Below, piece by piece: positions 14,665-29,485 of a stretch of 34,681 bases of DNA. The DNA comes from Deltaproteobacteria bacterium (lineage in GTDB: Bacteria; Desulfobacterota; Desulfarculia; Adiutricales; Adiutricaceae). The notes under the pieces are model-generated. The model made no database searches and had not been told where the DNA came from. It was given only the letters and a program-made list of their open reading frames with translations. How positions within the stretch are numbered: position 1 is the stretch's first letter; each line of letters starts with the position of its first letter. Both the position numbers and the translations under genes were made by a program. The stretch is taken from contig JAISEQ010000361.1 of NCBI GenBank assembly GCA_031264045.1, positions 1-34,681 on the forward strand, given 5' to 3'.

Positions 14665-15285
14665 CTAGATGTATCGGTCCCTTACCGCAAGGAAGTATCC
14701 TATCGCCGCCAGCATGAGCGCGTGGGTGACGGCGCCCCCCCTGAAGCGCCTCTCCAGCTCGTCCACGGTCAGCAGGAGGGATTCGGCCTCCTCGTTCTCG
14801 TCGAAGCTCACGCCGAGGGTCTTCGAGGCGTTCCTGGCCACGGCCGTGGTGATGCCGTTCCAGAACAGGGCGGGGTTGGGGTTGAGCGTTATGAGCTCCT
14901 CGGCCGGATCCGCCGTGTAGCCGGTCTCCTCGGCGAGCTCGCGGACGGCCGCGTCCACCGGGCTTTCGCCGGGGCCGACCGCCCCGCCGGGGAGCTCCAG
15001 GGAGAAGTCCCTGGAGCCGTGCCGGTACTGGTTCACCATGACCACGCGGTTTTCAGGATCGAGGGCTATGATGTTGGCCCAGGAGGGGGCTGAAAGCACG
15101 GAGAAGGCCCTGACCCGCCCGTCCTTGGGCGACGCCGCCCGCCGTTCCACGGCCGTGAAGACGGGGGACTCGTAGACGGCCTCGTCCGAGATCCACCTCC
15201 ACGGGAGGATGCGGCCCGGGGCTGGGGCCGCGGCGGCGGGGACTTCCGGCTCCCGGTCCGCCGGCGGCTTCGCGGCCCCGCTCAC
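14665..15285 (-). CDS. Nudix hydrolase, ADP-ribose pyrophosphatase-like
   Basis: Cleaves nucleoside diphosphate-X compounds, most likely ADP-ribose or related sugars, judged from resemblance to ADP-ribose pyrophosphatases. The 206-residue product holds an exact Nudix box at about 101-123: GAVGPGE, seven residues, then REL-A-EE-TGY. Upstream is the typical NQYRHGSRDFSLELPGG segment. The start is GTG at 15283-15285, inside the tyrS stop (GTGA, a 4-base overlap), with AAGGTG upstream, indicating translational coupling. The frame continues upstream antiparallel to nothing useful: that part simply reads tyrS out of frame. The first 25 residues are Pro/Ala-rich and probably flexible. A hairpin follows the stop. 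Confidence 0.9.
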   Translation of the reverse strand: MSGAAKPPADREPEVPAAAAPAPGRILPWRWISDEAVYESPVFTAVERRAASPKDGRVRAFSVLSAPSWANIIALDPENRVVMVNQYRHGSRDFSLELPGGAVGPGESPVDAAVRELAEETGYTADPAEELITLNPNPALFWNGITTAVARNASKTLGVSFDENEEAESLLLTVDELERRFRGGAVTHALMLAAIGYFLAVRDRYI

Positions 15286-16583
15286 CCCGACACCTTGACG
15301 GTCTTGTAGCGCTTCTTCCCGGCCCTCAGCGTCACCTGGCCCCTGGCCAGCCACGGCGAGCCCTTCACGGGGGATCCCTCCGCGCCCGGGGAGAGCCTCT
15401 CCTCGTCCGCGTAGGCGCCTCCCTGCCTGATGAGCCTCCTGGCCTCCGACTTGGAGGAGGCCAGCCCCGCCATGACGAACAGGCCGGCCATGTCGGCGGC
15501 CTCCAGGGCCGCGAGATCGAACACCTCGGCGGGGAGCTCGGAGGCCGCGTCCGGGGGTGCGCACTCCGTTATGCGGGAGGAGGTCCTGACGGCCATGTCC
15601 GGGTCTGCTGCCCCGAAGGCCCCGGCCGAGGCGCGGAAGGCGTCGGCGGCCTCGGCGAAGCCGTGGCAGACGCTGGTCACCTCGAAGGCCAGGATCTCCT
15701 TCGCGCGGTTTATGAGGTTGCCCGGAAGGGTCGCGAGCGTCCTGCACTCCTCCTGCGGCAGGAAGGTGAAGAGGGAAAGGAGCCTTCCCGCCTCCTGATC
15801 GTCTATGTTGCGCCAGAACTGGTAGAAGTCGTAGACGGGGGTTCTGGCGGGGGAGAGCCACACGGCCCCGGCCGCGGTCTTCCCGAACTTCTCCCCGGTG
15901 CGGGGGTCGATGAGGAGGGGCATCGTGATGCCGTATGCCGAGCCTCCCGCCTCGCGGCGGATGAGCTCTATGCCCGCCACGATGTTCCCCCACTGGTCCT
16001 GGCCCCCCATCTGGAGGAGCGCCCCCTCCTCCCTGTACAGTACCAGGAAGTCGTAGGCCTGCATGATCATGTAGTTGAACTCCAGAAAGCTCAGCCCCTG
16101 CTCCAGCCTGCTCCGGTAGCTCTCGGCCGTGAGCATCCTGTTCACCGAGAAGTGCCTTCCTATGTCCCGCATGAAGCTCACGTAGTTGAGATCCTTGAGC
16201 CACGCCGAGTTGTCCCTCAAGACCCCGTTGCCCCTGGGCGGCAGGTCCACGAACCTTTCCAGCTGGGGCCGGATGCCTTCCGCGTTGGCCTCTATGTCTT
16301 CCAGGGAGAGGATCTTCCTGGCCTCCTTCCTCCCGGACGGGTCCCCCACCATGGAGGTCCCGCCCCCCAGGAGGGCGATGGGCCTGTGGCCCAGGCGGTT
16401 GAGCCAGCTCAGGGCCATGAGCGGGAGAAGGTGCCCCACGTGGAGCGAGTCCGCCGTGGCGTCGAAGCCTATGTAGGCCGACACCGGACCTTTCGCGAAG
16501 AGCTCCTGGAGCCCCTCCTCGTCGGTGACCTGGTAGTTGAAGCCGCGCTCCTGGAGCGCCCTGTAAGCGTTTTGGAGTTCCAA
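15282..16583 (-). CDS. tyrS: Tyrosyl-tRNA synthetase
   Basis: Class I aminoacyl-tRNA synthetase of 433 residues, charging tRNA-Tyr. The HIGH-type motif reads SLHVGHL (46-52) and the KMSKS-type loop reads EKFGKT. The tyrosine and Gln/Asp binding segments (YDFLVLY, QMGGQDQWGNI) are intact. The C-terminal part holds an S4-type RNA-binding domain (MAGLASSKSEARRLIRQGGAY). The start appears to be TTG at 16581-16583, as no in-frame ATG lies close upstream; ribosome pairing is weak. It overlaps the Nudix gene by four bases. A TACAAT string on the minus strand at 16813-16818 could be a -10 box about 235 bases upstream, but lacks a good -35. Confidence 0.97.
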   Translation of the reverse strand: MELQNAYRALQERGFNYQVTDEEGLQELFAKGPVSAYIGFDATADSLHVGHLLPLMALSWLNRLGHRPIALLGGGTSMVGDPSGRKEARKILSLEDIEANAEGIRPQLERFVDLPPRGNGVLRDNSAWLKDLNYVSFMRDIGRHFSVNRMLTAESYRSRLEQGLSFLEFNYMIMQAYDFLVLYREEGALLQMGGQDQWGNIVAGIELIRREAGGSAYGITMPLLIDPRTGEKFGKTAAGAVWLSPARTPVYDFYQFWRNIDDQEAGRLLSLFTFLPQEECRTLATLPGNLINRAKEILAFEVTSVCHGFAEAADAFRASAGAFGAADPDMAVRTSSRITECAPPDAASELPAEVFDLAALEAADMAGLFVMAGLASSKSEARRLIRQGGAYADEERLSPGAEGSPVKGSPWLARGQVTLRAGKKRYKTVKVSG

Positions 16584-17096: not shown

Positions 17097-18959
17097 CTAG
17101 TGGCGGAAGGGCGGGTCCTTGGGCGGGACGGGGACGGGTCGGCAGAATCCCTCTATTTCGCACTCGGAGCACTCGTCGCACTCCTCCTCCGGGTACTCGG
17201 GGCTCTTCGAGCACTCGTCGAAGGAGGCGCAGCCTTCGCAGTCCCCGCAGTCCGGCTCCTCGTCAGCCTCTTCCTCCCCGTCCCCTCCGCCTGGCGTCTC
17301 CCCGTGAGGGGGATCGGGAGGCGACCAGGGCTCCCAGCCGTCGGCTGCCGGTCGGCGGCCGGAGCCTGAAGCGGCGGCCGGGGCCTTGCCGGGCACGTCA
17401 CCGCAGGCGCCCGGGCCGTCGTCCTCCGGATGCCGCGAGGCGAAGATCCAGTCGGAGTCCGCCGGCATGTCCTCCGCGGCGGCGAGCTCCCCGGAGACCG
17501 GTCTCAGGCGGCGGTCCTGGCCGGGGACTGCGCGGTCCGGATCCCCGGAGGTTCCGGAGGTTCCGGACGCCCATGGGGCCCCGGAGGCGCCCCGCGGTCC
17601 CGAGGCCCCCGACGCGTACGGGGGGGGCGGCCCCGAGCCCGTTCCGGAAGGGGGGGCGTCCGCCGTTGGGGGGGGGGCGGCGAACCGGGCCCCGCACGTG
17701 CCGGCCGTCCGCGCGGCAGGGTTCCCCGACCCGCCGGAGGCCCGGGAAGAAGAGGCCGAAGCCGAAGGGGAGGCGGCCCCCGAGGCGGAAGCCGTCCCGG
17801 ATCCCGAGGACGGCGCCGAAGCCGCATCCCGGGCGCCGCGACCCGCCGCCCCGGGGCCGCTCCGCCCGTTCCCTGACCGGAAGCCCTCCGGCGGCGGTTT
17901 CGTTGCCCGCGCGGCATCCCCCGTCTCCCGGACCTCGCTGGCCAGCCAGGGGAGGACGTCAGCCCCGCCTATCGCCACGGGATCGGAAAGCGTTCTGGCG
18001 AGCCGCGGGTTGGGGGCCGTGGAGAAGCGGAAGAACTCGTCCCTGGCCGCGGCCGTCTCCGCCGGCGTGGCCCCGGGGCCGGGCCCGGCCAGTATCGAGA
18101 GGGCCCGCGCCCTCTCCATCATCATCCCGGGGGAGTTGTAGGCCCAGCTCAGGAAGAGCGCCGCCTCGCCTCCCCCCTCCTGCCAGATTCTGGAGCCGAG
18201 GAAGGCGTCCGCGTAGCTCATGGCGCTGTAGAAGAGGGCCCTGCCGTCCGGGAGGTTCCATGCGGGCACGGGACCGCGGGCGCGCCTCAGGACTATCTCC
18301 GCGACGTACGGCTGGGAAATGAAGGCGCGGCGCAGCACCTGGGCGGATTCGGCGTGGCGTCCCTGGAGGAATCTCAAAAGCGCCTCCCCGTAGGCGGACT
18401 CGTAGGGCATGGGAACGGGCGGGGTCACGAAGAACTCCTCCGCCTCGTCCAGCTTCCCCAGGATCAGGAGGAGGTTTCCGACGTAGGCCCTCGCGTCGTC
18501 GGGGTTCCTCGCGTCCCATTCGGCGTGCCTCCGGCACATGGCCAGCGCCTCGGGGTATTTCCCGGCGTTCACGGTGGCGGCTATGAGGGCGTTGTGGCAG
18601 CTCAGGAAATGGATGGAGAGCTCGTCCTCGGGGTCCAGGGCTCCCCTGAAGCCCCCTATGAGCCTGAGGAGAGGCCCCATGCGGGCCGCGACGTCCCTCG
18701 CGAACTCCCCGCGGCCTCTTCCCCGGCGCTCAGCGAGCCTCGCGTCCAGGTACAGTGAAAGGGCGTCCAGGCGAAGCGGGTCGACGGCGAGTATCGCTCC
18801 GGAGGCCTCGGCGCAGGCCCCGGCCGTCAGCTCATGGCGGTAGAGACCCGCCGCGAGCCGGTCGGTCTCTCCCTTGGCGCGGCGGAGGGCCGATGCGTCC
18901 TCGGGCCTGAAGGCCCCCGTGGCGCCGCTCTCCTGGGTAAAGGCGAAGCGCAGGGACAT
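17097..18959 (-). CDS. Unrecognised protein: TPR-like domain, disordered linker, twin four-cysteine tail
   Basis: A 620-residue protein that I cannot assign. Residues 1 to about 350 are helical and TPR-like, with segments such as KYPEALAMCRRHAEWDARNPD and AYVGNLLLILGKLDEAEEFF that recall TPR/ST7-like proteins. Residues about 365-560 are Gly/Ser/Ala/Pro-rich and surely disordered. The tail is acidic and has eight cysteines at 571, 574, 577, 583, 594, 597, 600 and 606. They form two copies of CX2CX2CX5C separated by ten residues, followed by a Pro-rich end. That spacing suggests a metal or Fe-S site but matches no family I know. No signal peptide or membrane span is seen, so it is probably cytoplasmic. 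Start is ATG at 18957-18959. It has no operon partner. Confidence 0.8.
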   Translation of the reverse strand: MSLRFAFTQESGATGAFRPEDASALRRAKGETDRLAAGLYRHELTAGACAEASGAILAVDPLRLDALSLYLDARLAERRGRGRGEFARDVAARMGPLLRLIGGFRGALDPEDELSIHFLSCHNALIAATVNAGKYPEALAMCRRHAEWDARNPDDARAYVGNLLLILGKLDEAEEFFVTPPVPMPYESAYGEALLRFLQGRHAESAQVLRRAFISQPYVAEIVLRRARGPVPAWNLPDGRALFYSAMSYADAFLGSRIWQEGGGEAALFLSWAYNSPGMMMERARALSILAGPGPGATPAETAAARDEFFRFSTAPNPRLARTLSDPVAIGGADVLPWLASEVRETGDAARATKPPPEGFRSGNGRSGPGAAGRGARDAASAPSSGSGTASASGAASPSASASSSRASGGSGNPAARTAGTCGARFAAPPPTADAPPSGTGSGPPPPYASGASGPRGASGAPWASGTSGTSGDPDRAVPGQDRRLRPVSGELAAAEDMPADSDWIFASRHPEDDGPGACGDVPGKAPAAASGSGRRPAADGWEPWSPPDPPHGETPGGGDGEEEADEEPDCGDCEGCASFDECSKSPEYPEEECDECSECEIEGFCRPVPVPPKDPPFRH

Positions 18960-20046
18960 GTGCGGTCCGGATGCCCGGCTGCCTCCGGGCGGGAAAGTGG
19001 TTTTCTGTCATGTCCGGGCCGAGGGGCCGGCCGGGCGGGGGGAGGGGGTTCCGGTCCCGGCCGCCGGAAGGCCCGCGAGGTCCGCAGTCCTCCGGAAGGT
19101 CCGGGAATCCGGGGGTCGGGCGGCCGGGAGATCCGCTGTCCGGGCTGTCCGGAGGGTCGCGCCCGCGCCGTGATCCTTGGATGCGTATCCGGGCATTTTC
19201 CTTCAACGCGGGGGCAATTGCAAGGGATCCGCAGTTTCGCCCCCTGCCGCTGAAAGCCGTGCTGGCGCCCGGTTTCCGGGGTTTTCCGGTGGGGCGGCAG
19301 GATATTTCGCGCGAAAATATTTACCCGCGCTCCCGTCCGCATGACGTCAAACAATTAGAGGATACGCGGCTTTGAAGTCTTGTGCGCTGCGGTCGGGCGT
19401 ATGGTTACTGGCATAACGTCCGCTTGCGCCGTCAAGAAATCCAGATTCCGCGTCGCCGGAATCGTCCGCGCCGCGGGATTTGCCGATGGATCACCCGTCC
19501 CGCCGGTGCATCGGCTAACGCCTGAGCGCGGGACGGGCCGTAAGGATGCTTTTAAGGCGACTGAACACCGCGCCGGGTTTCCCGCCTCGGGATTTCCATC
19601 CGGCTCGGCTGCCGGTCCCGTCGCGCGGGGGCGACGGGCGTAGGCATCGGGCGCGGGAGGGAGTTGCGCCGGGGCGGGGATCCTGCGGGAAGCCGCAGGC
19701 TCCTGAAGGGGGAGAGACTTCCGCCGGGACGTTATTGTCCTTGCCCGGGAGCCTTCGGTGCCTCGGCCTGAGCCGGCGCCTGCGTACCGGGGCCTTCCCG
19801 GAAGGGCGCGCGTTGACCGCCGGACTCACCAGGCGGCTCGGACGGCCCATCGGCGCCTGCCGGTGCCACGGGCGGCGGCTCTTCGCGGTCTGAGCTGGCT
19901 TCGGGGTTATCCGGGACCTTCCGGGGGCCTTCCGGGGTTCCGGAGTTCCCCGTTCCGCCTCCCCTTCGATCCCCATGGGCACTGACCCGAGGGCCGGTCG
20001 GGGAAGGGCCCGGGGAGCGGCTTGCGGGGTGGGGGGAGGAAAACCC
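18960..20046. other. Gene-free spacer of about 1.1 kb
   Basis: Between the leftward TPR/cysteine-rich gene and the tRNA promoter. The first 230 bases are G-rich on the plus strand. About 19290-19440 is less GC-rich and holds a palindrome (19305-19316). On the minus strand a TTGACG (plus 19345-19350) lies upstream of it, without a properly spaced -10. The rest is GC-rich with no plausible protein. Confidence 0.5.
19303..19320. promoter_or_regulatory. Perfect palindrome TTTCGCGCGAAA with AT flanks, operator-like
   Basis: The 12-base core at 19305-19316 is perfectly self-complementary, and the flanks (ATA left, ATAT right) extend the symmetry with a one-base shift. It sits in AT-richer DNA about 345 bases upstream of the TPR/cysteine-rich gene and near a TTGACG string, so it could bind a dimeric regulator. 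Function is unknown. Confidence 0.3.
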
Positions 20047-20075
20047 TTGCCAATCGGTTTCTCACCGAGTAGAAT
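20047..20075 (+). promoter_or_regulatory. Promoter of the tRNA-Pro gene
   Basis: TTGCCA (20047-20052), a 17-base spacer, and TAGAAT (20070-20075). Transcription would begin near 20082, about ten bases before the mature tRNA. Spacing and both boxes fit sigma-70 well. Confidence 0.75.
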
Positions 20076-20092
20076 CTGTTGCCTTTGAATGT

Positions 20093-20169
20093 CGGGGCGT
20101 GGCGCAGCCTGGTAGCGCGGCTGCTTTGGGAGCAGTAGGACGGAGGTTCAAATCCTCTCGCCCCGACCA
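20093..20169 (+). tRNA. tRNA-Pro (anticodon UGG)
   Basis: The 77-base gene folds into a full cloverleaf. The acceptor stem is CGGGGCG with CGCCCCG. The D arm contains GCGC-AGCCTGGTA-GCGC, the anticodon stem is GCTGC/GCAGT with loop TTTGGGA, and the T arm contains GGTTCAAATCC. The anticodon is TGG, read as proline. Discriminator A is followed by an encoded CCA (20167-20169). It has its own promoter upstream and a terminator-like hairpin starting six bases downstream, with a cyclophilin gene 48 bases after its end. Confidence 0.97.
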
Positions 20170-20174
20170 AGCCG

Positions 20175-20197
20175 AGCCCCCCGCTGGGGGGCTTCTT
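20175..20197 (+). terminator. Hairpin between tRNA-Pro and the cyclophilin gene
   Basis: Eight-bp stem AGCCCCCC/GGGGGGCT with loop GCT, followed by TCTT. It lies six bases past the tRNA CCA and 20 bases before the cyclophilin ATG. The T tract is poor, so it could end most tRNA transcripts, let some through, or serve as a processing site. Confidence 0.6.
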
Positions 20198-20217
20198 AAT
20201 CCGGAAGGTGACACACC

Positions 20218-20826
20218 ATGCCGCGCATCCCGAGGAAAACCATGATCATGCCGCTTCTCGCGGCCCTGGCCGTTGCGGCCGGGATCGCCGTAATAGCACC
20301 GTCCTCCGCCTCTGCCCAGGAGGCCCCCGCCGCCCGCCAGATCGCGGTCTTCGACACCACGATGGGCACATTCGAGGTGGAGCTCTACAACGACCTGGCC
20401 CCGAAGACGGCGGGCAACTTCGCGACGCTCGCCGAGCGCAAGTTCTACGACGGAACCATTTTCCACCGCGTCATTGACGACTTCATGATCCAGGGGGGCG
20501 ACCCCGAAGGCCGCGGCACCGGAGGCCCGGGCTACACCATCGAAGACGAGTTCGGCGAGGGGCTCAAGCACGATTCCGAGGGCATCCTCTCCATGGCCAA
20601 CTCCGGCCCGAACTCCGGCGGATCCCAGTTCTTCATAACGCTTGTCCCCACCTCCTGGCTGGACGGCAAGCACGCCATCTTCGGGCACGTCGTCTCGGGC
20701 ATGGACGTGGTGAAGAGCATAGGCAAGACCCCGGTTGACAGATCGGACAGGCCCAGGACCCAGGTGAAGATAAACTCCGTGACCATCAAGGGCGGCCCCG
20801 GCGAGGAGTCCTCGTCGGGCGAGTAG
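20218..20826 (+). CDS. Secreted peptidyl-prolyl cis-trans isomerase, cyclophilin type
   Basis: Cyclophilin that speeds proline isomerisation during folding, here exported. The 202-residue precursor starts with a positively charged, hydrophobic signal peptide likely cut after SASA (about residue 33), so it acts in the periplasm like PpiA. The cyclophilin core is complete: FHRVIDDFMIQGGDP holds the catalytic Arg, and GSQFFIT and WLDGKHAIFGHV follow. It is the short bacterial form. The C-terminus is a polar Gly/Glu/Ser tail. The ATG at 20218 follows GGAAGGTG. No separate promoter is apparent between the tRNA-Pro hairpin and the start, so readthrough from the tRNA promoter is likely. A strong terminator lies 150 bases after the stop. 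Confidence 0.95.
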   Translation: MPRIPRKTMIMPLLAALAVAAGIAVIAPSSASAQEAPAARQIAVFDTTMGTFEVELYNDLAPKTAGNFATLAERKFYDGTIFHRVIDDFMIQGGDPEGRGTGGPGYTIEDEFGEGLKHDSEGILSMANSGPNSGGSQFFITLVPTSWLDGKHAIFGHVVSGMDVVKSIGKTPVDRSDRPRTQVKINSVTIKGGPGEESSSGE

Positions 20827-20975
20827 CCGCCGGGCGGCTGGTCGGCCGGACATAGGCGGCCGGTGCCTTCCGCCTGCAGGGCAGGCCGGCCTGCCCGGGC
20901 CCTCATGATCGGTCAGGGGACTTCGGGAACGGTCGGGAACGGCAGGAACCGGCACGACAGGACGAGACGATACGC

Positions 20976-21024
20976 GCAGGGGGACCTCCCGGAACAGCTC
21001 CGGCGGGTCCCCCTGCTTTTTTTT
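20976..21024 (+). terminator. Strong intrinsic terminator
   Basis: Perfect 10-bp stem GCAGGGGGAC/GTCCCCCTGC (20976-20985 with 21007-21016) followed by eight T residues. It is the clearest terminator in the window. It ends the cyclophilin transcript after about 150 untranslated bases, or a small RNA derived from that 3' region. Confidence 0.88.
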
Positions 21025-21130
21025 CTGGGTGCCGGGGCACTCTCCGTTTTTTGTCGGTTCGGGAGCTGTCGTTGATATTTCTGATGTCCCCGCCATATGG
21101 TTGAAATGCGCATGGATGGCCACATCTGGT

Positions 21131-21216
21131 ATTATTGCTGATATGAATATCTTTAGATATCAGCTTTTTATATATTTTTGATGATTAAAATGCTATGTTA
21201 TTAAATTATTGCTGAT
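21131..21216. repeat. 12-bp direct repeat ATTATTGCTGAT flanking an AT-rich 62-bp segment
   Basis: The same 12 bases lie at 21131-21142 and 21205-21216, with almost pure AT sequence between them. They could be a short target duplication or a replication-slippage product. No transposase lies between. Confidence 0.7.
21137..21169 (+). terminator. AT-rich hairpin followed by T5
   Basis: Arms GCTGATAT (21137-21144) and ATATCAGC (21157-21164) pair perfectly around a 12-base loop, then TTTTT follows. It looks like an intrinsic terminator of low-GC DNA and may have arrived with the island. No gene directly upstream needs it. Confidence 0.5.
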
Positions 21217-21683
21217 GAAGCCCCGTCTGAGCTCCCGTTTGGGTGCCCTGCGGCCGCAAGGCGGATGCCGGCGTCCGGTCCGGACGGACGTGCCCGATTT
21301 CACCTTTAGGCTCCGGCAAATTTTGAGTTTCCGGACGGAGGGGCCTGGCATCATTTGCGGAGGCCTGCAGCGGCCCGTCCTGCGGTTCCGGCTGCCGGTC
21401 GGCGGGGAAAGTCGGGATCCGATAAAGAATGGAGAAAGACCGCACCGCCGGAGCCCAAACCGGACATCGGCACCGGGTACGGCGAAAGTTTGCCCGAATC
21501 GCTCAAAAAACGGGTCAACCGGACATCCTCCGTTGAAAGTCATATTCCGCTCCAAAGGGCCGTTATGGTATGACGGCGACATTTGGTGTGCCTGTGCAGT
21601 TCTGCGCCTGGGTCATGTGCGGCGGCGCATCGACTGCCGCTGTTTAATTTTTAACTACAAGACCTGCGATTCACGGGGACGGC

Positions 21684-22138
21684 ATGAAACTGGAAAATCT
21701 GTCGGTCACCGATCGGAGATTCCGGAATCTCAGGGATGGCAGTTTTCTCAACATCCACAAGACGGAATGCATCTGCAATATTCTTAACGTTTTCAATTGC
21801 AGTTTTTGCTTTCTGTCACGGCCCAGGAGGTTCGGCAAGACGCTTCTGCTTGATACCATACGCGAGCTGTTCCAGGGCGACCGGAAGCTTTTCAGGGGAC
21901 TCTGGATCGACAGAAGCGACTGCAGGTTCGAAAAGCACCCGGTCCTGAACTTCAACATGGCCTATGCAAAGATATCCTCCTCTGACGACCTTATCCGCAG
22001 GATCGCGGATGTTTTGAGAGATATGTCTGTTCAGCAGGACGTGAGCGTAACTTCGAATTCTTTCGACATGATGCTGGAGCAGCCTTCAGAAGGTATTTAC
22101 AGCAAGCAAGGTGTAGGCGTTTCCATCCTGGTTGACGA
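21684..22138 (+). pseudogene. Broken AAA-ATPase-like gene, 5' part only
   Basis: The first 152 codons align without gaps to the intact copy downstream (22896-24611). They share the N-terminal LTD/VTD-RSFR-like start, the Walker A-like RPRRFGKT (46-53), the LFQGDRKLF and KHPVLNFNMAY segments, and ILVDE of Walker B (148-152). Immediately after that the similarity ends and a stop follows at 22155-22157, so the rest of the ATPase domain and the whole nuclease domain are missing. The start ATG at 21684 matches the intact copy. The break coincides with the start of intron-like sequence at 22139. Base composition is lower in GC than the surrounding chromosome, as in the intact copy. Confidence 0.85.
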
Positions 22139-22650
22139 GTGCGATTTAAGCCTATGACCGGCAATCTGGTTCACTGCGGCATGGTCGGTAACGAGAGCGA
22201 GCCGGTTTCGGCTTGGCTCATGCGGATGGAACCTCCTCGCTATCGGGACCGATCGGCGTAAGGGACGAGAAGCGACCGGATGTTGAAATTTTCATCCGGA
22301 AACCTGTCTGACGTATCGGTCGACAATGTTGACATCCATCGGCCAGCGGAACTTATCCGGAGAGTTCGCTTCAGATATCTCGCTTGAGTCGTGCAGAGAA
22401 TGCCGAGAACGAAAGGGGGGGAGCCGGAGCTATCGAGAAGGCGTCCTGCGTTGCCGCAAGTCGGTGCCCGGACCGTGGCTCAGACATTAGAGTCGCTCCA
22501 GGCTCCAGTCTTTGAAGACGCGACCGATGCGGCCGAACTGACGGGTGGGACAGTCTCCTTGCAGGATACTTCAGAAACCTAATCCCGGAGATGCCAACCC
22601 GTCCCAGGGGAAAAGCATGTATCTGACAGAAGCTGGAAGTGCAGACTTAA
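22139..22650 (+). mobile_element. Possible group II intron stub (5' ribozyme part)
   Basis: Exactly where the ATPase frame loses homology, the sequence reads GTGCGATTTAAGCC, a start of the GUGYG form used by group II introns. Further in, short strings resemble conserved domain I parts as I recall them from the lactococcal Ll.LtrB intron: a TCGACAATGTTGACAT segment near 22319 and ATGCCGAGAACG near 22400. No reverse transcriptase, no domain V hairpin and no second half of the ATPase gene follow, so at most a 5' remnant remains. The right edge is approximate. The 63-codon open frame at 22391-22582 is not a protein I recognise. The rest, to 22895, is AT-rich with nothing recognised. The identification rests on memory of intron sequence, not on a search. 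Confidence 0.4.
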
Positions 22651-22895
22651 AAGTGGAAGCCTGATGTCTCCGAGGATGCCAGCTCCGGCGGCTGATGGTT
22701 GTCAGCGCAAATCAAAAACCGTGCCAACTATTTAGCTTCTGATGCAAGTTATATGATGAATATTCGGCTTTTATATGTCATAATTAATTTGTCAGGATAA
22801 ACTGTTCCCTCCGGATCCTGGCGGCTACGTGCAGCGGCATCTCGTCAGCGACAGATTAATTTCGAACCCTGATGCAGGAGCTCAACGAAAATATT

Positions 22896-24611
22896 ATGGA
22901 ACTGGATAAATTGCCCTTAACTGATCGGTCATTTAGGGATATACGAGAGAATAATTATCTCTACATCGACAAGACTGAATATATCTACAAGATTCTTAAT
23001 GTTTTCAATTATAACTGTTGCTTTCTGTCCCGTCCCAGGCGCTTCGGCAAGACGCTTTTGCTTAAGACAATCAATGCCTTGTTTCAGGGTGACCGGAAGC
23101 TTTTCAGTGGGCTGTGGATCGACAAAAGCGATTACCAGTTCGAAAAGCACCCGGTCCTGAACTTCAACATGGCATACAGCGAGATCTACACCAAGGATGA
23201 TCTCATCTCAAGGATCAAGACGGACTTGCGGAACGCTGGTGATTTGGAGGAGATTAAGATAAACGCAACTTCCTACGGTGAGATGCTGGGGGAGCTTCTG
23301 AAAGGTATCTCGTTGAAGTATGGAGTCGATGCCGTCATCCTGGTGGACGAGTATGATGCTCCGGTGGCCAGAAATATATCGGATCGAACGCTTGCCGCTG
23401 CCAACCGGGACGTCCTGCATGATTTTTACCAGTCCATGAAAACCAACATTGACTCCATTCACTTCGTCTTCGTCACTGGTATAACCAGATTTGCCATGTC
23501 CAGCTTTGACTCCGGACCAAACAACTTCATGGACATTTCACTTCAACCTGAATTGGCAGGAATCTGCGGGTTCACCCCACGCGAGCTGGACAACTATTTC
23601 GGGGACAGGATGGAGCAGATTCTCCAAAAGCTGAAAGACGATGAGGCAGTTGCCGCGAACGCCGATGTTGATGATTTGAAGAAGATAATCTTTGATTGGT
23701 ACGACGGGTACAACTGGCTGGGGCCCGAGCACGTCCTTAATCCATACTCGATACTGTATTTTTTTGCTCGAAAAGAATTCGATGCATACTGGCCTGTTTC
23801 AGGATATACTTCCCACCTGAGAGCCCTCGTAAGGGAAAATCCGCAAAAGTTTCTTCAGCCTCGGCTGGACAGTTATACTTCAGCTGAACTCGGAATATCA
23901 CATCTCGACAATCTCAAACCTGTCCCCGTGCTGTTCCACAGCGGTTATTTGACAATTGACCGCAAAATATCCAATAATATCCGTTCTGAAGGCAGAACTA
24001 AGGTAGTCAAGACGTTCACTTTCAGGACACCCAACTGGGAAGTCGAACAAAATTTCAGAGCATCACTTTTCAAGGATGCTTTCGCCCCGGAAGAGTCGTA
24101 TTTAAGCGCTTTGACGGAGCTCCTTCCGGAAGCCCTGTTGGAGAAAAACTCCGAAAACGTGTCAGATCTTCTGCATGACCTTCTTTCCTCAATATCTTTC
24201 GGGCAGCACGCAAGTTCCGGACAGCGTATTTTTTCTGAAAAATATTACCATTCAATAATCCATGCCTCTTTGCTCGCGGCGGGTTTTGAAGTCTACAGCC
24301 AGGGGTCTGGTGCCCATGGCATGTCCGACATCACATTGTTCCTTACAGATAGAGTACGCGTTGTAATAGAGCTGAAATACTGCAGTGCTGACAGTGATGT
24401 ATCCGACTACTATTCATCCCAAGCCGGAAAGGCGCAGTCGGAAAATGAACGCTCGGCAAAGGAGTTTACTGCCGCTCTCGATAGGGCGGAAAAACAGATA
24501 ATTGCAAACGACTACGCCGGACCATACAGAGCGAACCGATGCGAGGTGATATGCATGGCCCTCGCGCTCCGGGGCAGGGACGAGGTGAAGGTCCGTTTTT
24601 TAGATCTTTAG
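22896..24611 (+). CDS. AAA-ATPase-like / PD-(D/E)XK nuclease fusion protein
   Basis: An intact 571-residue member of the AAA-ATPase-like plus PD-(D/E)XK family (the DUF1703-type architecture). The ATPase part has a Walker A-like RPRRFGKT (46-53) and Walker B ILVDEYD (148-154). The C-terminal nuclease-like part shows Asp478 (SDITL) and ELK at 492-494, the D...ExK catalytic pattern. The biochemical role of the family is unsettled; nucleic acid cleavage coupled to ATP is an inference. The ATG at 22896 aligns with the start of the broken copy; an ATG at 22872 would add eight residues. Neither has a well-placed ribosome site. The gene is clearly richer in A and T than the chromosome and sits in an AT-rich island, so it was probably acquired. 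No operon partner is present. Confidence 0.88.
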   Translation: MELDKLPLTDRSFRDIRENNYLYIDKTEYIYKILNVFNYNCCFLSRPRRFGKTLLLKTINALFQGDRKLFSGLWIDKSDYQFEKHPVLNFNMAYSEIYTKDDLISRIKTDLRNAGDLEEIKINATSYGEMLGELLKGISLKYGVDAVILVDEYDAPVARNISDRTLAAANRDVLHDFYQSMKTNIDSIHFVFVTGITRFAMSSFDSGPNNFMDISLQPELAGICGFTPRELDNYFGDRMEQILQKLKDDEAVAANADVDDLKKIIFDWYDGYNWLGPEHVLNPYSILYFFARKEFDAYWPVSGYTSHLRALVRENPQKFLQPRLDSYTSAELGISHLDNLKPVPVLFHSGYLTIDRKISNNIRSEGRTKVVKTFTFRTPNWEVEQNFRASLFKDAFAPEESYLSALTELLPEALLEKNSENVSDLLHDLLSSISFGQHASSGQRIFSEKYYHSIIHASLLAAGFEVYSQGSGAHGMSDITLFLTDRVRVVIELKYCSADSDVSDYYSSQAGKAQSENERSAKEFTAALDRAEKQIIANDYAGPYRANRCEVICMALALRGRDEVKVRFLDL

Positions 24612-25549
24612 TCTTTTGTTTTCTTTGAGGCGTTTTATACTCTATGTTTCGCTGTAAATATTTTTTAAACAATAGTTTCTGTTTTTGTATAGAGTATTTG
24701 GGAAACCGGCAGTGTCATAAATCATATCCGGGTTTTCCATGTTGGGATGATCTGGAAATTTTCAGCATCATGACCGGGTGCCCTCTGATTTTGTTTGTCC
24801 AGTCTGAGGCAATGGGCTGGTTCGCGATAAGGGCGGCGCGGGGACTCTTCCGGCATCGGCGGCGTGTAGCTGAGCGGCCGGCCAGGCCGTTGTCCAGCGT
24901 TCCAGTATGAACCGGCGCTGAAATACGGATTTTCGGGAAAGCCTACCGTGACGGGATGCGGCGCTCATTCCTCCGTACGAAATCCCTCCGGGCGGATCAG
25001 AATCGTTCCTTCCGGGAGGAGCATCGATCCCCCGGGCTGAGCGCCGCGCTCCCTACGGGCGGAGCGGAAACGCTTTCCGGAACTGACCGGCATTAAGGCC
25101 GGTCCGTCCGGTTCGGCGTCATGGCATTGCGGTGCACGGTCATGTCCGGCGCATGCCCGGCGGCTTATTTCCGAGAGCCGCAAAGGGGAGCGCGAACAGC
25201 GGCGGCGAGAAATTCCCGGGTGCGCGCTGGCGGGCATTCCGTGATGCCGGGATCGAGCCGATCCTGTCCGGTATCCCGCATCGGCGCCTTTAGAGGGTGC
25301 CGAGGCGAGTTCCGGGAAGCCGAAGCATGTTCCTGGACGGTTCCTGAACCGGACGGGCTGGACCGCGCGGGACCGGGGCGGTCGTACGGCCCGAGCTTTC
25401 CAGGCCGGGCCGCTGGCGGCCTTCCGTTCCTCCGAGACCTTGAAAAGCGAGGCGTTTCCGGGTTCCGGGATTCGGGACCGGTGCCGGGAGCGGTGCCCCG
25501 CTTTTTAAGCCCTCGGAAGCGCCGGGCCGGTCGGGAGGACGGACGGCGT
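24612..25549. other. Gene-free spacer of about 0.9 kb
   Basis: The first 150 bases remain AT-rich and finish the island; from about 24800 onward composition returns to GC-rich. Short open frames here have no recognisable content. No terminator with a T tract was found for the ATPase-nuclease gene or for larE, which ends at 25550 from the other side. Confidence 0.5.
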
Positions 25550-26467
25550 TCAGCCTTTCCCCCCGTTTTCCGGGATGACGGCTCCGCCGCCGACGGCGCC
25601 GGACTCCCCTCCGGCCGCGGCCCCCTTCCGCGCGGAGGCGTCCGGAAGGGTCAGGTTCATGCTGCCCGTGCGGTAGCCGGCCAGATCCACCGCCACGTAG
25701 CTGAAGCCCAGCCCCCGGAGCTTCGCGAGCGCCTCGCGCCTGGCCTCGGGCGACGAGAGCAAGTCCAGGCCCTCCTCGTCCGCCTCTATCCTCGCGAGAG
25801 TCCCCTTCTCGTGGAGGCGGACGCGCACCTGGCGGACGCCCAGGGCCATCAGGCACTCCTCGGCGGCGTCCACGCGCCTCAGCGCCTCCGGGGTGATGCG
25901 TTCCCCGTAGGGGAAGCGGGAGGCGAGGCAGGCGAAGCTGGGCTTGTCCCAGGTGGGGAGACCGTCCTCCAGGGAGAGGAGCCTTATCTCGTCCTTGGTG
26001 AGGCCGCACTCCCGGAGGGGGCTCAGGATCCCCATCTCGCTCACGGCGGCAAGCCCCGGCCGGTAGTCCCCCTCGTCGTCGACGTTGGAGGCCTCGAGCA
26101 CCCACCTGGCCCCCTCCTCCTCCGCGACGGCGCGGATCCTGGTGAAGAGACCCCTCTTGCACAGGTAGCAGCGGTGCGGGGGGTTGTCCGCGAAGCCGGG
26201 CTCGTCCAGTTCCTCGGAGTCCACGATTCGGTGGCGGATTCCGCGTTCGCCGGCGAACCTCCTCGCCTCCTCCAGCTCCCGCGGCGGGAAGCTAAGGGAG
26301 CGTCCCGTCACGGCCAGGGCGCCCGGGCCAAGGGCCTTCTGGCACTCGGAGAGGAGGAAGGTGGAGTCCACCCCCCCCGAGAACGCCACGGCCGCGGTGC
26401 CCAGCCCCGCGAGCCTCCTGGCTAGCTCCGCGCGTTTGATCCGCGCGGGGCCTGCGTCTGCCGTCAT
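25550..26467 (-). CDS. larE: ATP-dependent sulfur transferase LarE (PP-loop family)
   Basis: LarE supplies sulfur to the pyridinium-3,5-bisthiocarboxylate nickel cofactor (NPN) used by lactate racemase and related enzymes. The 305-residue product has the PP-loop SGGVDST (30-36) that adenylates the substrate and the family signature WDKPSFACLASRFPYGERIT with Cys180, the sulfur-donor position of the sacrificial type. It also has Cys100 and Cys103 (HRCYLCK). In some LarE proteins three cysteines like these hold a [4Fe-4S] cluster that allows catalytic turnover, so this may be the cluster type. The ATG follows AAAGGAGA. The C-terminal 40 residues are Gly/Ala-rich and not conserved. No larA, larB or larC is in the window. 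Confidence 0.92.
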   Translation of the reverse strand: MTADAGPARIKRAELARRLAGLGTAAVAFSGGVDSTFLLSECQKALGPGALAVTGRSLSFPPRELEEARRFAGERGIRHRIVDSEELDEPGFADNPPHRCYLCKRGLFTRIRAVAEEEGARWVLEASNVDDEGDYRPGLAAVSEMGILSPLRECGLTKDEIRLLSLEDGLPTWDKPSFACLASRFPYGERITPEALRRVDAAEECLMALGVRQVRVRLHEKGTLARIEADEEGLDLLSSPEARREALAKLRGLGFSYVAVDLAGYRTGSMNLTLPDASARKGAAAGGESGAVGGGAVIPENGGKG

Positions 26468-26576
26468 GCTTTCTCCTTTCGGGCGCCGTTCCGGCGCCGC
26501 GCGCGGCTCCTGCCGCGGACCGTTCCGGGAAAGTCCCGTGTTCCGGGCGTTCCTTCGGGATCGCGCGGGATCATTC

Positions 26577-26617
26577 GGGACAGTCGGATGGGACAGTAGT
26601 CGGATGGGACAGTCGGG
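26577..26617. repeat. Short tandem repeat GGGACAG-TCGGAT, three units
   Basis: Units begin at 26577, 26590 and 26606, each starting GGGACAGT and continuing with TCGG; the middle one has an AGT insertion. They lie about 110 bases upstream of the larE start on the opposite reading sense. Confidence 0.75.
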
Positions 26618-27820
26618 GGGGGAACATGCCGCCGACGGCCTGGACCGGCGGTTCCCACCGCCCGAGGCCGGTCGGAGGGGTTGAGCTCCGCATGGCCCCG
26701 GCGGCGTCCGTCTGGCAATGCCAGTTCCTTCGCCAAGCCCCGGGCGTCCGGCCGCTGGACGATTCTAAGCTTTCGTCGGCCGTTTTAACAGACCGGGGCA
26801 CGAAAGCCGCCGGGAGCTGTTTTCCGGAGGGGGCGGAACGCGGGATATCCGTTCGCGTGCGGACGGTGCTGGCGGAGGGGAAGCCGGGAAGCAGGCGGAG
26901 GGAGCACGGGAAACGAGGGGGCAGGACGGTGACGGCGGGACGGCGAGCCACCCTGTGAACGGATATGAAGTATATTGGCAATTTGCATTTATTTATTCCT
27001 CTTTTATAGATTAAATATCATCTTTAATTTTTAATAAATCTTTTTAAGATTTATAATGATTATTGCGACATCTATATATTAATTTTATGTTATTAAAATA
27101 ACTTATAACTCTAATAAGACTTAATTGCTCCAATACAGATTTGACATGTCCGGCGCCCTGCTTACCGAACCCCTTCTCCTCGGCCAGGCTTTCTGCCCTC
27201 TCCCATCGGGGTAATAGTGAGGGGCGGGGGCGGGAGCTGGATCGCCTTTCGGGCACCTGCGGACGGTCCCGCATCGCTTATTTCGCAAAGGAATATCCGT
27301 TTAGTATAATGTCAATGTCAATATGTGGGCAAGAAATAACACTTAGACATCTTAAATAACCATATTGATTATTAATGAGGTCTTTTAAACGTGAATAAAG
27401 CATAAAAAGAATCTTGGACGAGATCAAAGCAGACACATTTCTTCTTAAATAAAATGTAGGTACCAGAAAGTCTCGTTAGATCTCAAATAGCCTTATACAG
27501 TAATGCTTACATATAAAAGCTCTGCGGAAGTTCGGCCTCAGGGACCTGAGGGGGCGGCGGCCAGCTTCCCGACCGGCAGGCTCCGCAACGGCGCTCCGTG
27601 AAGCGCGGTGCGCCCGCTCCGGGCGGTTTCGCCCGACAGGAGCCGGACATGATCCCGGAACCGCTAGGCTGTCATGCCGGATCATCGGCGATTCGCCCGC
27701 CGCGCGGCCGTCTTCCGAGGGACGGTGACCGCCATGGGGCAAAGCCGTTACGATGTCCCGTGGAGACCGCGCTGGACCGTTCCGGAGCGGGCTCGTCCGG
27801 CACGGTTCCGGGGGGGGATG

Positions 27821-27899
27821 GTCACGGTGCCGGCGGGGGGAGTGTCACGGTGCCGGCGGGGGGCGGGTCACGGTTCCGGGGGGAGGGTCACGGTGCCGG
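27821..27899. repeat. G-rich tandem repeat, about four units
   Basis: Units begin GTCACGGTGCCGG or GTCACGGTTCCGG at 27821, 27844, 27867 and 27887, each of the first three followed by a long G run. A partial earlier unit lies near 27800. The repeated G runs on the plus strand could form quadruplex DNA. It ends about 30 bases past the mnmA stop. Confidence 0.8.
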
Positions 27900-27931
27900 A
27901 CTCCGGTCCGTAGCCTCTTCATTCCCCCGGT

Positions 27932-29485
27932 TCAGAGTGGCCCCGTGCCAAGGATCGTCCCGCCGCCCACCACGATCTCCCCGTCGTAGAATACCGCGGC
28001 CTGACCCGGGGCCACGGCCGTCTGCGGCGTCCGGAAGGTGACGAGCGCCCTCCCGTCCGCCAGCGGCTCCAGGAGCGCCGGCGTTTCCGGCTGGCGGTAG
28101 CGGATCTTGCAGCCGATCTCCATGGGCCCCTGAAGCTCCCCGACGGATATTAGGTTCAGATCCCCCACCAGGGCAGAGGCGGACGCCAGATCCCCGTATC
28201 CCCCGACCGTCAGGGAGTTTCGGACGGGGTCTATCCTCAGCACGTATGAGGGCTCCGGGCCGGGGAGTCCCAGTCCCTTCCTCTGGCCCACCGTGTACCG
28301 CCAGACTCCCCCGTGCCTCCCTATGACCTTCCCATCCTTCGCTAGTATGTCGCCCGGACCGGGGAGTCCCGCGAAGGGGCCGGGTCCGGAGAGCCCGCAT
28401 GCCGCTTCACCCGCCGCCGCGCCCACGTCCCCCGCTGTCGCGCCGCGCTCCGCCGGCTTTCCGTATCCGCCCGCAGGCGAACCGAAGCCGGCGGGATCCG
28501 CACCCCGGAGTCCCAGGAGCGCCCGGTCCCCGTCCCGTCCAGCGCCCGGATCTCCGGCCTTTCCTTCCCTTCCTTGCCCTTCCCAGTTTCCTCGCCCTTC
28601 TTCGCTGCCTTGCCAGTCGCCTCCTCCCTGCCCCTCTTCCCCTCCTTCTCCTCCCGTTCCGCCTCCGCCTCCCCGCGGGCCCGGAAGCCCCTCGTTCCAG
28701 CGCCCCTCCGGCCCCGCCGGGCCGGCGGCGAGAAATCCCGCGTAGTCCCCGTCCGGAACGAAGCATATGTCCTGGCTCTCGGGCTTCATGGCCACCTCGA
28801 GCCCGGCCTCGGAGCACAGGGCCCGCGTCTCGGCCTTGGTGATGTCCCCGAGGGGGAACAGGACGGCCCCGAGCTCCTCCTGCGTCATGGCGTAGAGGAC
28901 GTAGCTCTGGTCCTTGGTCCGGTCCCTGGCCTTCAGGAGCAGGAGGCGGGAGCCGTCCCTTGCGATTCTCGCGTAGTGGCCGGTGGCTATCTTCCGGAAC
29001 CCCAGGATCCCTGCCCGCTCCCTGAGCCTCGCGAACTTCATGCGGCGGTTGCACAGGATGCAGGGGTTGGGGGTCCTGCCCGCCAGGTAGTCCTCCCGGA
29101 AGGGAACGACCACCTCCTCCCAGAAGGAGCGGGTGAAGTTGAAGACCATGTGGTCCATGTCCAGCTTCCCGCAGGCGGCCCTGGCGTCCTCTATGTCACG
29201 CCTGGAGCAGCAGCTCCTCCTGCCGGCGCAGTCCGCCCCGGCCGGATAGTCAAGGAGCTTCATCGTGGCGCCGGCCGCGTCCCATCCCGCCCGCTTCAGG
29301 AGAAGCGCGGCGCAGCCCGAGTCCACCCCCCCGCTCATGGCGACCAGGACGCGGCCGGGGGACTCGCGGGCAGCCGCCCCGGACAGGGCCGGGGAAGGGG
29401 AGCCGGAAGGGGCGTCGGGCGGAGCGCCGGACGTGCCGGGGGGAGGCGTGCGGCCGGGCGGGATCGGATTATGGATGGGAGGCAT
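27932..29485 (-). CDS. mnmA: tRNA-specific 2-thiouridylase MnmA with a large low-complexity insertion
   Basis: MnmA thiolates uridine-34 of Lys, Glu and Gln tRNAs. From the ATG at 29483-29485 the product has 517 residues, against roughly 360 for the family. The PP-loop SGGVDS is at 51-56, PNPCILCNRRMKF (139-151) holds Cys142 and the catalytic Cys145, and SQDICFV holds the second catalytic Cys241. After DGDYAGFLAAG (245-255) comes a Gly/Glu/Arg-rich segment of about 120 residues (about 256-376). The family then resumes with PGDILAKDGKVIGRHGG and WRYTVGQRKGLG. Without the insert and a 44-residue Pro/Ser-rich N-terminus, length is normal. An extra CX6CC cluster near residues 86-93 and the CXXC at 142-145 hint at an Fe-S-dependent form. 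The unit reads def, fmt, small membrane protein, mnmA. Confidence 0.93.
   Translation of the reverse strand: MPPIHNPIPPGRTPPPGTSGAPPDAPSGSPSPALSGAAARESPGRVLVAMSGGVDSGCAALLLKRAGWDAAGATMKLLDYPAGADCAGRRSCCSRRDIEDARAACGKLDMDHMVFNFTRSFWEEVVVPFREDYLAGRTPNPCILCNRRMKFARLRERAGILGFRKIATGHYARIARDGSRLLLLKARDRTKDQSYVLYAMTQEELGAVLFPLGDITKAETRALCSEAGLEVAMKPESQDICFVPDGDYAGFLAAGPAGPEGRWNEGLPGPRGGGGGTGGEGGEEGQGGGDWQGSEEGRGNWEGQGREGKAGDPGAGRDGDRALLGLRGADPAGFGSPAGGYGKPAERGATAGDVGAAAGEAACGLSGPGPFAGLPGPGDILAKDGKVIGRHGGVWRYTVGQRKGLGLPGPEPSYVLRIDPVRNSLTVGGYGDLASASALVGDLNLISVGELQGPMEIGCKIRYRQPETPALLEPLADGRALVTFRTPQTAVAPGQAAVFYDGEIVVGGGTILGTGPL

Follow-up and report, generated by a model that had tools for sequence, protein, structure and literature searches.

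The closest described counterparts of the site reported here are found in the iron-sulfur flavoproteins (ISF), which carry an unusually compact motif, CX2CX2CX5-7C, that is most likely the ligand of a [4Fe-4S] cluster (PMC3164229). These are flavodoxin-fold FMN_red proteins (PF03358) with a flavodoxin-like FMN domain. Two four-cysteine groups in a short acidic polypeptide are likewise a feature of the 2[4Fe-4S] ferredoxins. The window, i.e., the whole stretch of 34,681 nucleotides analysed in this study (contig JAISEQ010000361.1), encodes a 620-residue protein with the tail CX2CX2CX5C-X10-CX2CX2CX5C, the cysteine part of which spans 36 residues (Table 1). The spacing is identical to that of the ISF motif, but the window protein gave no FMN_red or Flavodoxin match, its N-terminal domain (N-domain) is a predicted alpha-solenoid, and its two modules stand in tandem as a C-terminal tail on that TPR solenoid. 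The protein is a new combination of known parts, a TPR/ST7-type domain and an ISF-type compact motif, with a putative function. No signal peptide was apparent in the 620-residue protein when the sequence was judged by eye.

Table 1. Coordinates of the gene, its predicted parts and its downstream neighbour in the window
Feature	Position	Strand	Basis
Whole coding sequence, 620 aa and stop	17097..18959	(-)	homologues in eight other genomes
Residues 1-338: beta-hairpin and TPR-type helical solenoid, remote ST7-type homologue	17946..18959	(-)	AF2 pLDDT 92, hhalign, plasmid TPR homologues
Residues 339-570: low-complexity linker rich in Gly/Ala/Ser/Pro, acidic stretch 560-570 at its end	17250..17945	(-)	variable length among homologues
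Residues 479-508: linker island PGQDRRLRPVSGELAAAEDMPADSDWIFAS, conserved in genus g1 only	17436..17525	(-)	alignment
Residues 540-551: linker island W-x-PW-x-PP, conserved	17307..17342	(-)	alignment
Residues 571-583: module 1, CGDCEGCASFDEC, CX2CX2CX5C	17211..17249	(-)	four Cys invariant in ten proteins
Residues 594-606: module 2, CDECSECEIEGFC, CX2CX2CX5C, resembles ISF compact motif	17142..17180	(-)	invariant in ten proteins; hhalign to ISF-type
Residues 614-620: C-terminal KxPP(F/Y)RH, conserved	17100..17120	(-)	alignment
tyrS (tyrosyl-tRNA synthetase), downstream neighbour, same strand	15282..16583	(-)	Pfam, neighbourhood

Conservation and distribution of the eight-cysteine tail

The cysteines listed in a preliminary description of the sequence, at residues 571, 574, 577, 583, 594, 597, 600 and 606, matched the translated reading frame exactly. 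Shuffling residues 551-620 100,000 times never gave two non-overlapping CX2CX2CX5C modules. For eight cysteines within 36 residues, the probability that the first four and the last four are spaced identically was p ~5e-4. At the DNA level, the bare cysteine pattern showed no enrichment in the genome over its reversed control, being common in a GC-rich genome; the evidential weight therefore lies on conservation and not on the spacing alone.

Ten tailed proteins were identified: the window protein, a second copy in its bin and one from each of eight other genomes, with the homologues drawn from four further genomes of the window's genus and from genera g2, g5 and g8 of the family. The nine others share 31-64% identity with the window protein. 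All eight cysteines and the CX2CX2CX5C spacing were invariant in the alignment of the ten, as were G572, E599, E601, E603, G604 and F605, and the gap between the modules was 10 residues in 9/10 (9 residues in G009). Additionally, in each of the nine pairs compared the 36-residue tail had a lower pN/pS than the linker, at 0.13-0.34 for the tail and 0.53-0.90 for the linker in eight of them; the exception was the pair of the window and G002, with values of 0.52 and 0.65 from few sites. Because the double module is both conserved and under selection, it most likely forms a genuine metal or Fe-S site, in agreement with what had been proposed from the duplicated spacing. The F and EGF residues conserved in the tail are more in line with a small folded site than with a metallothionein. 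The setting is strongly acidic (net charge of -20 over residues 551-610), and in the model of a homologue the linker and most of the tail fell below a pLDDT of 50, making the tail model one of low confidence.

The linker ahead of the tail is between 24 and 455 residues long among the tailed homologues and is rich in Gly/Ala/Ser/Pro. Its composition, the alignment and the low confidence of the model mark the approximately 200 disordered residues noted earlier as a flexible linker. The length and variability of the linker and its two short genus-g1 islands (residues 479-508 and 540-551) suggest docking motifs on a tether. In the G012 homologue (L010, 1156-2517), a further, partial module within the linker, CLSCESYKTC (CX2CX5C), precedes the eight-cysteine tail.

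The eight-cysteine tail occurs in one bacterial family only, where it is lineage-specific and fixed in one clade. It was found on no other protein of the window's genome and none was found in phages, and a scan of approximately 85,000 species genomes returned only seven related loci, all in metagenome bins named 'Deltaproteobacteria bacterium'; judging by the bin naming and PMC9137090, these may be Adiutricaceae of termite guts. A search of a sample of the phylum with the tail gave weak matches only: ISF-type proteins, a second group that appeared DUF116-like by eye, and chance matches. The second copy in the window's bin (G000:C43, L005) is accompanied by its own tyrS, which is 88% identical; since this tyrS travels with the copy, a co-binned relative is more likely than paralogy within the genome.

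In the sister genus g6, homologues lie between trxB and tyrS in G028 and G031 and beside tyrS in G010 and G034, and they end in CGCGCGCG...DPDHKH, GCGCGCGGHDHRH, ECGCGCGA, ECGCGYDA, or an acidic stretch without cysteine, the tail of the G010 homologue having zero cysteines. Two g6 loci with the gene between trxB and tyrS (L017, 1411-2550; L015, 1495-2583) show CGCGCG repeats and a DHKH/HDHRH end. Such ends would be typical of a loose metal-binding tail at the same position. In G017 and G025 of g6, trxB stands directly before tyrS with no homologue seen, and no full homologue was found in g7, g10 and g11; several of these genomes are incomplete bins, and single absences mean little. In an unrooted tree of the N-domain, the tailed proteins and the g6 proteins were split with full support. 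The preliminary description had held that relatives without the cysteines, or with freely varying cysteine number and spacing, would speak against a site; the tailed clade showed no such variation, whereas the g6 homologues carry from zero to many cysteines, with free CGCGCG spacing. Therefore, the eight-cysteine tail is a trait of one clade and not of the whole homologous set.

The TPR-type N-terminal domain and its ST7-type relatives

AlphaFold2 modelling from 15 sequences gave the N-domain a pLDDT of 92 and a pTM of 0.88, with a helical solenoid between an N-terminal beta-hairpin and a short hairpin that closes it. A TPR_2 match was obtained in 14/15 members at E values up to 1 (best 3.4e-6, Pfam), the single-sequence TPR matches of the window protein itself being weak and under the Pfam cut-offs. 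The best Foldseek matches were TPR domains, none at E <0.001, and fold searches against the PDB and viral models returned generic TPR matches only, all at E >0.001. The helical TPR-like domain recognized at the outset was confirmed by the model in combination with homology. In plasmids, tblastn detected unnamed TPR proteins of Geoalkalibacter (E 6e-10), Rhizobium and E. coli of about 350 residues, which can be aligned with residues 1-338 over their full length, from the N-terminal strand through to the closing PW, but are without any cysteine tail. Members of this plasmid family (L148, L149, L150) adjoin IscB, AbiEii-type or integrase genes, and a likeness to TCF25 in one plasmid relative was just over its cut-off.

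Most of the proteins found with a widened N-domain profile were PF04184 (ST7) members by Pfam. The hhalign comparison of the window family with ST7-type proteins reached a probability of 98.4% and an E-value of 9e-15 over 216 columns, part of which is generic TPR likeness; the likeness to bacterial ST7-type proteins covers the TPR core and the PYVAEIxL / NxxVPxYLL block after it, in keeping with remote homology. Membership in ST7 was rejected by a direct Pfam test, with no PF04184 match over the curated cut-off in any genome of family f1, and was later taken up again as remote homology by profile comparison. As the window protein stays below the PF04184 cut-off, its N-domain is, as judged from these profiles, a remote homologue of the ST7-type proteins and not a member.

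A SEC-C motif (PF02810) was found on three ST7-type proteins, at the C-terminus in L158 and L162 and internally in L152. The three belong to other members of the phylum, and one of them also carries UPF0149. The metal motif of these ST7-type proteins is SEC-C (CPCGSGKKYKKCC), whereas the window protein has CX2CX2CX5C twice, and no PF02810 match was obtained in the window protein or the tail alignment. The architecture had been described as an unfamiliar one; a parallel exists in the joining of a TPR domain to a cysteine metal motif in these SEC-C-bearing proteins, while the combination itself is new.

Likeness of the tail to ISF-type sites and competing readings

Module 2 (CDECSECEIEGFC) nearly matches the ISF-type sequence CQECGACEREGFC (CxECxxCExEGFC), down to the EGFC ending, and module 1 (CGDCExCExFDEC) has the ISF spacing but less residue likeness. 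The hhalign comparison of the tail with ISF-type FMN_red proteins aligned 20 columns of module 2 at a probability of 88.5% and 45% identity, with an E-value that is biased both by selection, as the tail profile had itself been used to find the ISF sequences, and by cysteine composition. The best of the weak phylum matches to the tail were C-x-EC-xx-CE-xx-GFC proteins in a flavodoxin-like context, and the only one of these tested (L055) is FMN_red in Pfam. Two FMN_red-type proteins with exact CX2CX2CX5C are encoded in the window's own genome. The spacing does differ from that of ferredoxin (CX2CX2CX3C), as was first remarked, and it has a precedent in the ISF compact motif. Ferredoxin itself was rejected, with CX2CX2CX3C absent, X5 throughout and a Fer4 profile match (E 2.2) in only 1/10 members. 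The tail matched no Pfam or PDB family; scytovirin, the sole match of the tail profile among solved structures, was dismissed as chance (E 1.4), and a literature search for the string CX2CX2CX5C gave no paper.

The ISF motif, the likeness of module 2 and the two FMN_red proteins of the same genome make one [4Fe-4S] cluster per module most likely. Since a small group of related bacteria conserves the tail without exception, the protein probably acts as an electron or metal carrier with two clusters on a tether, a kind probably not described before. On sequence evidence, the chances are about even that it is specifically a cytosolic TPR adaptor with a flexibly tethered tandem of two ISF-type [4Fe-4S] sites, acting as a two-cluster carrier. 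Such a soluble adaptor would hold a partner protein with its TPR-type solenoid, which is supported by prediction and homology, and the disordered linker of variable length would tether the 36-residue tail with its two compact CX2CX2CX5C sites. Each site would most likely ligate its cluster in the ISF manner, given the identity of the motif, and the mobile arm may deliver electrons, or clusters, to the solenoid-bound partner or accept them from it; the acidic setting would be suited to docking on a basic surface. The lack of close ISF likeness in module 1 and the low confidence of the tail model count against the two-cluster reading.

The gene neighbourhood also weighs against it. In the window, and wherever both genes share one contig, tyrS lies 3' on the same strand, directly adjacent in g2, g5, g6 and G012 of g8 and at a few kilobases in several g1 genomes; a NUDIX-domain match adjoins tyrS in the window, and trxB is a neighbour in g6. 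These neighbours suggest housekeeping linkage with no clear pathway, and tyrS, NUDIX (sometimes) and trxB (in g6) point to no electron-transfer partner. Because the g6 genes beside tyrS have a different cysteine tail or none, the core function in that genus does not depend on a two-cluster site. Elsewhere in the window, positions 20000-28000 have a GC content of 0.49-0.62 compared with approximately 0.70, include an AAA-ATPase_like/PDDEXK_9 gene at 22872-24611 (+), and are likely an acquired island.

Alternatively, the eight cysteines could form two structural Zn(Cys)4 sites, a small docking knuckle with a role comparable to the SEC-C tail of SecA, whose C-terminal metal-binding domain docks SecB (PMC8076867). 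Two four-cysteine groups also fit zinc, and SEC-C is carried by ST7-type relatives of the N-domain, C-terminally in two of them; however, the tail has no CPxCG-type knuckle and no SEC-C match, module 2 has the exact ISF spacing and residues, and iron in vivo has been reported for SecA-like domains according to the title of a work cited in PMC8076867, leaving zinc an unlikely reading. It is quite unlikely that the protein is a metal or cluster chaperone or store, in which an acidic cysteine tail carries a metal (Fe, Ni or Cu) or an entire cluster and delivers it to a client bound by the TPR domain, and the tails are interchangeable, lineage-specific metal hooks. The very acidic surroundings and the CGCGCG and His-rich ends (DPDHKH, HDHRH) of g6 homologues at the same place, typical of loose metal-binding tails, are consistent with such hooks, but spacing and non-cysteine residues are fixed in the tailed clade beyond the needs of a loose hook, and the g6 homologue of G010 has no cysteine in its tail. 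A thiol-disulfide switch, with thioredoxin-reduced, reversible disulfides of the eight cysteines regulating TPR binding, is very improbable: the g6 homologue adjoins trxB, but trxB is not adjacent in the eight-cysteine lineages, the g6 tails differ, and fixed CX2CX2CX5C triplets typify metal sites and not redox CXXC pairs.

Implications for the family

Returning to the two-cluster carrier, a bolder form of it is put forward tentatively and at less than even odds: the free-standing tandem of compact ISF-type sites could be a two-[4Fe-4S] unit, a new type of minimal ferredoxin approximately 36 residues long, that evolved in one bacterial family to be the mobile arm of a TPR adaptor. A tail that does bind two clusters would represent a naturally occurring two-cluster module of very short length, and a compact Fe-S motif of folded enzymes could then serve as a portable tail. 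Because the tail is short, it is directly testable as a peptide, either synthetic or expressed. Set side by side, the relatives that bear SEC-C, end in CGCGCG or have no tail suggest that, in this TPR group, the end of the protein is a site at which lineages exchange metal modules.
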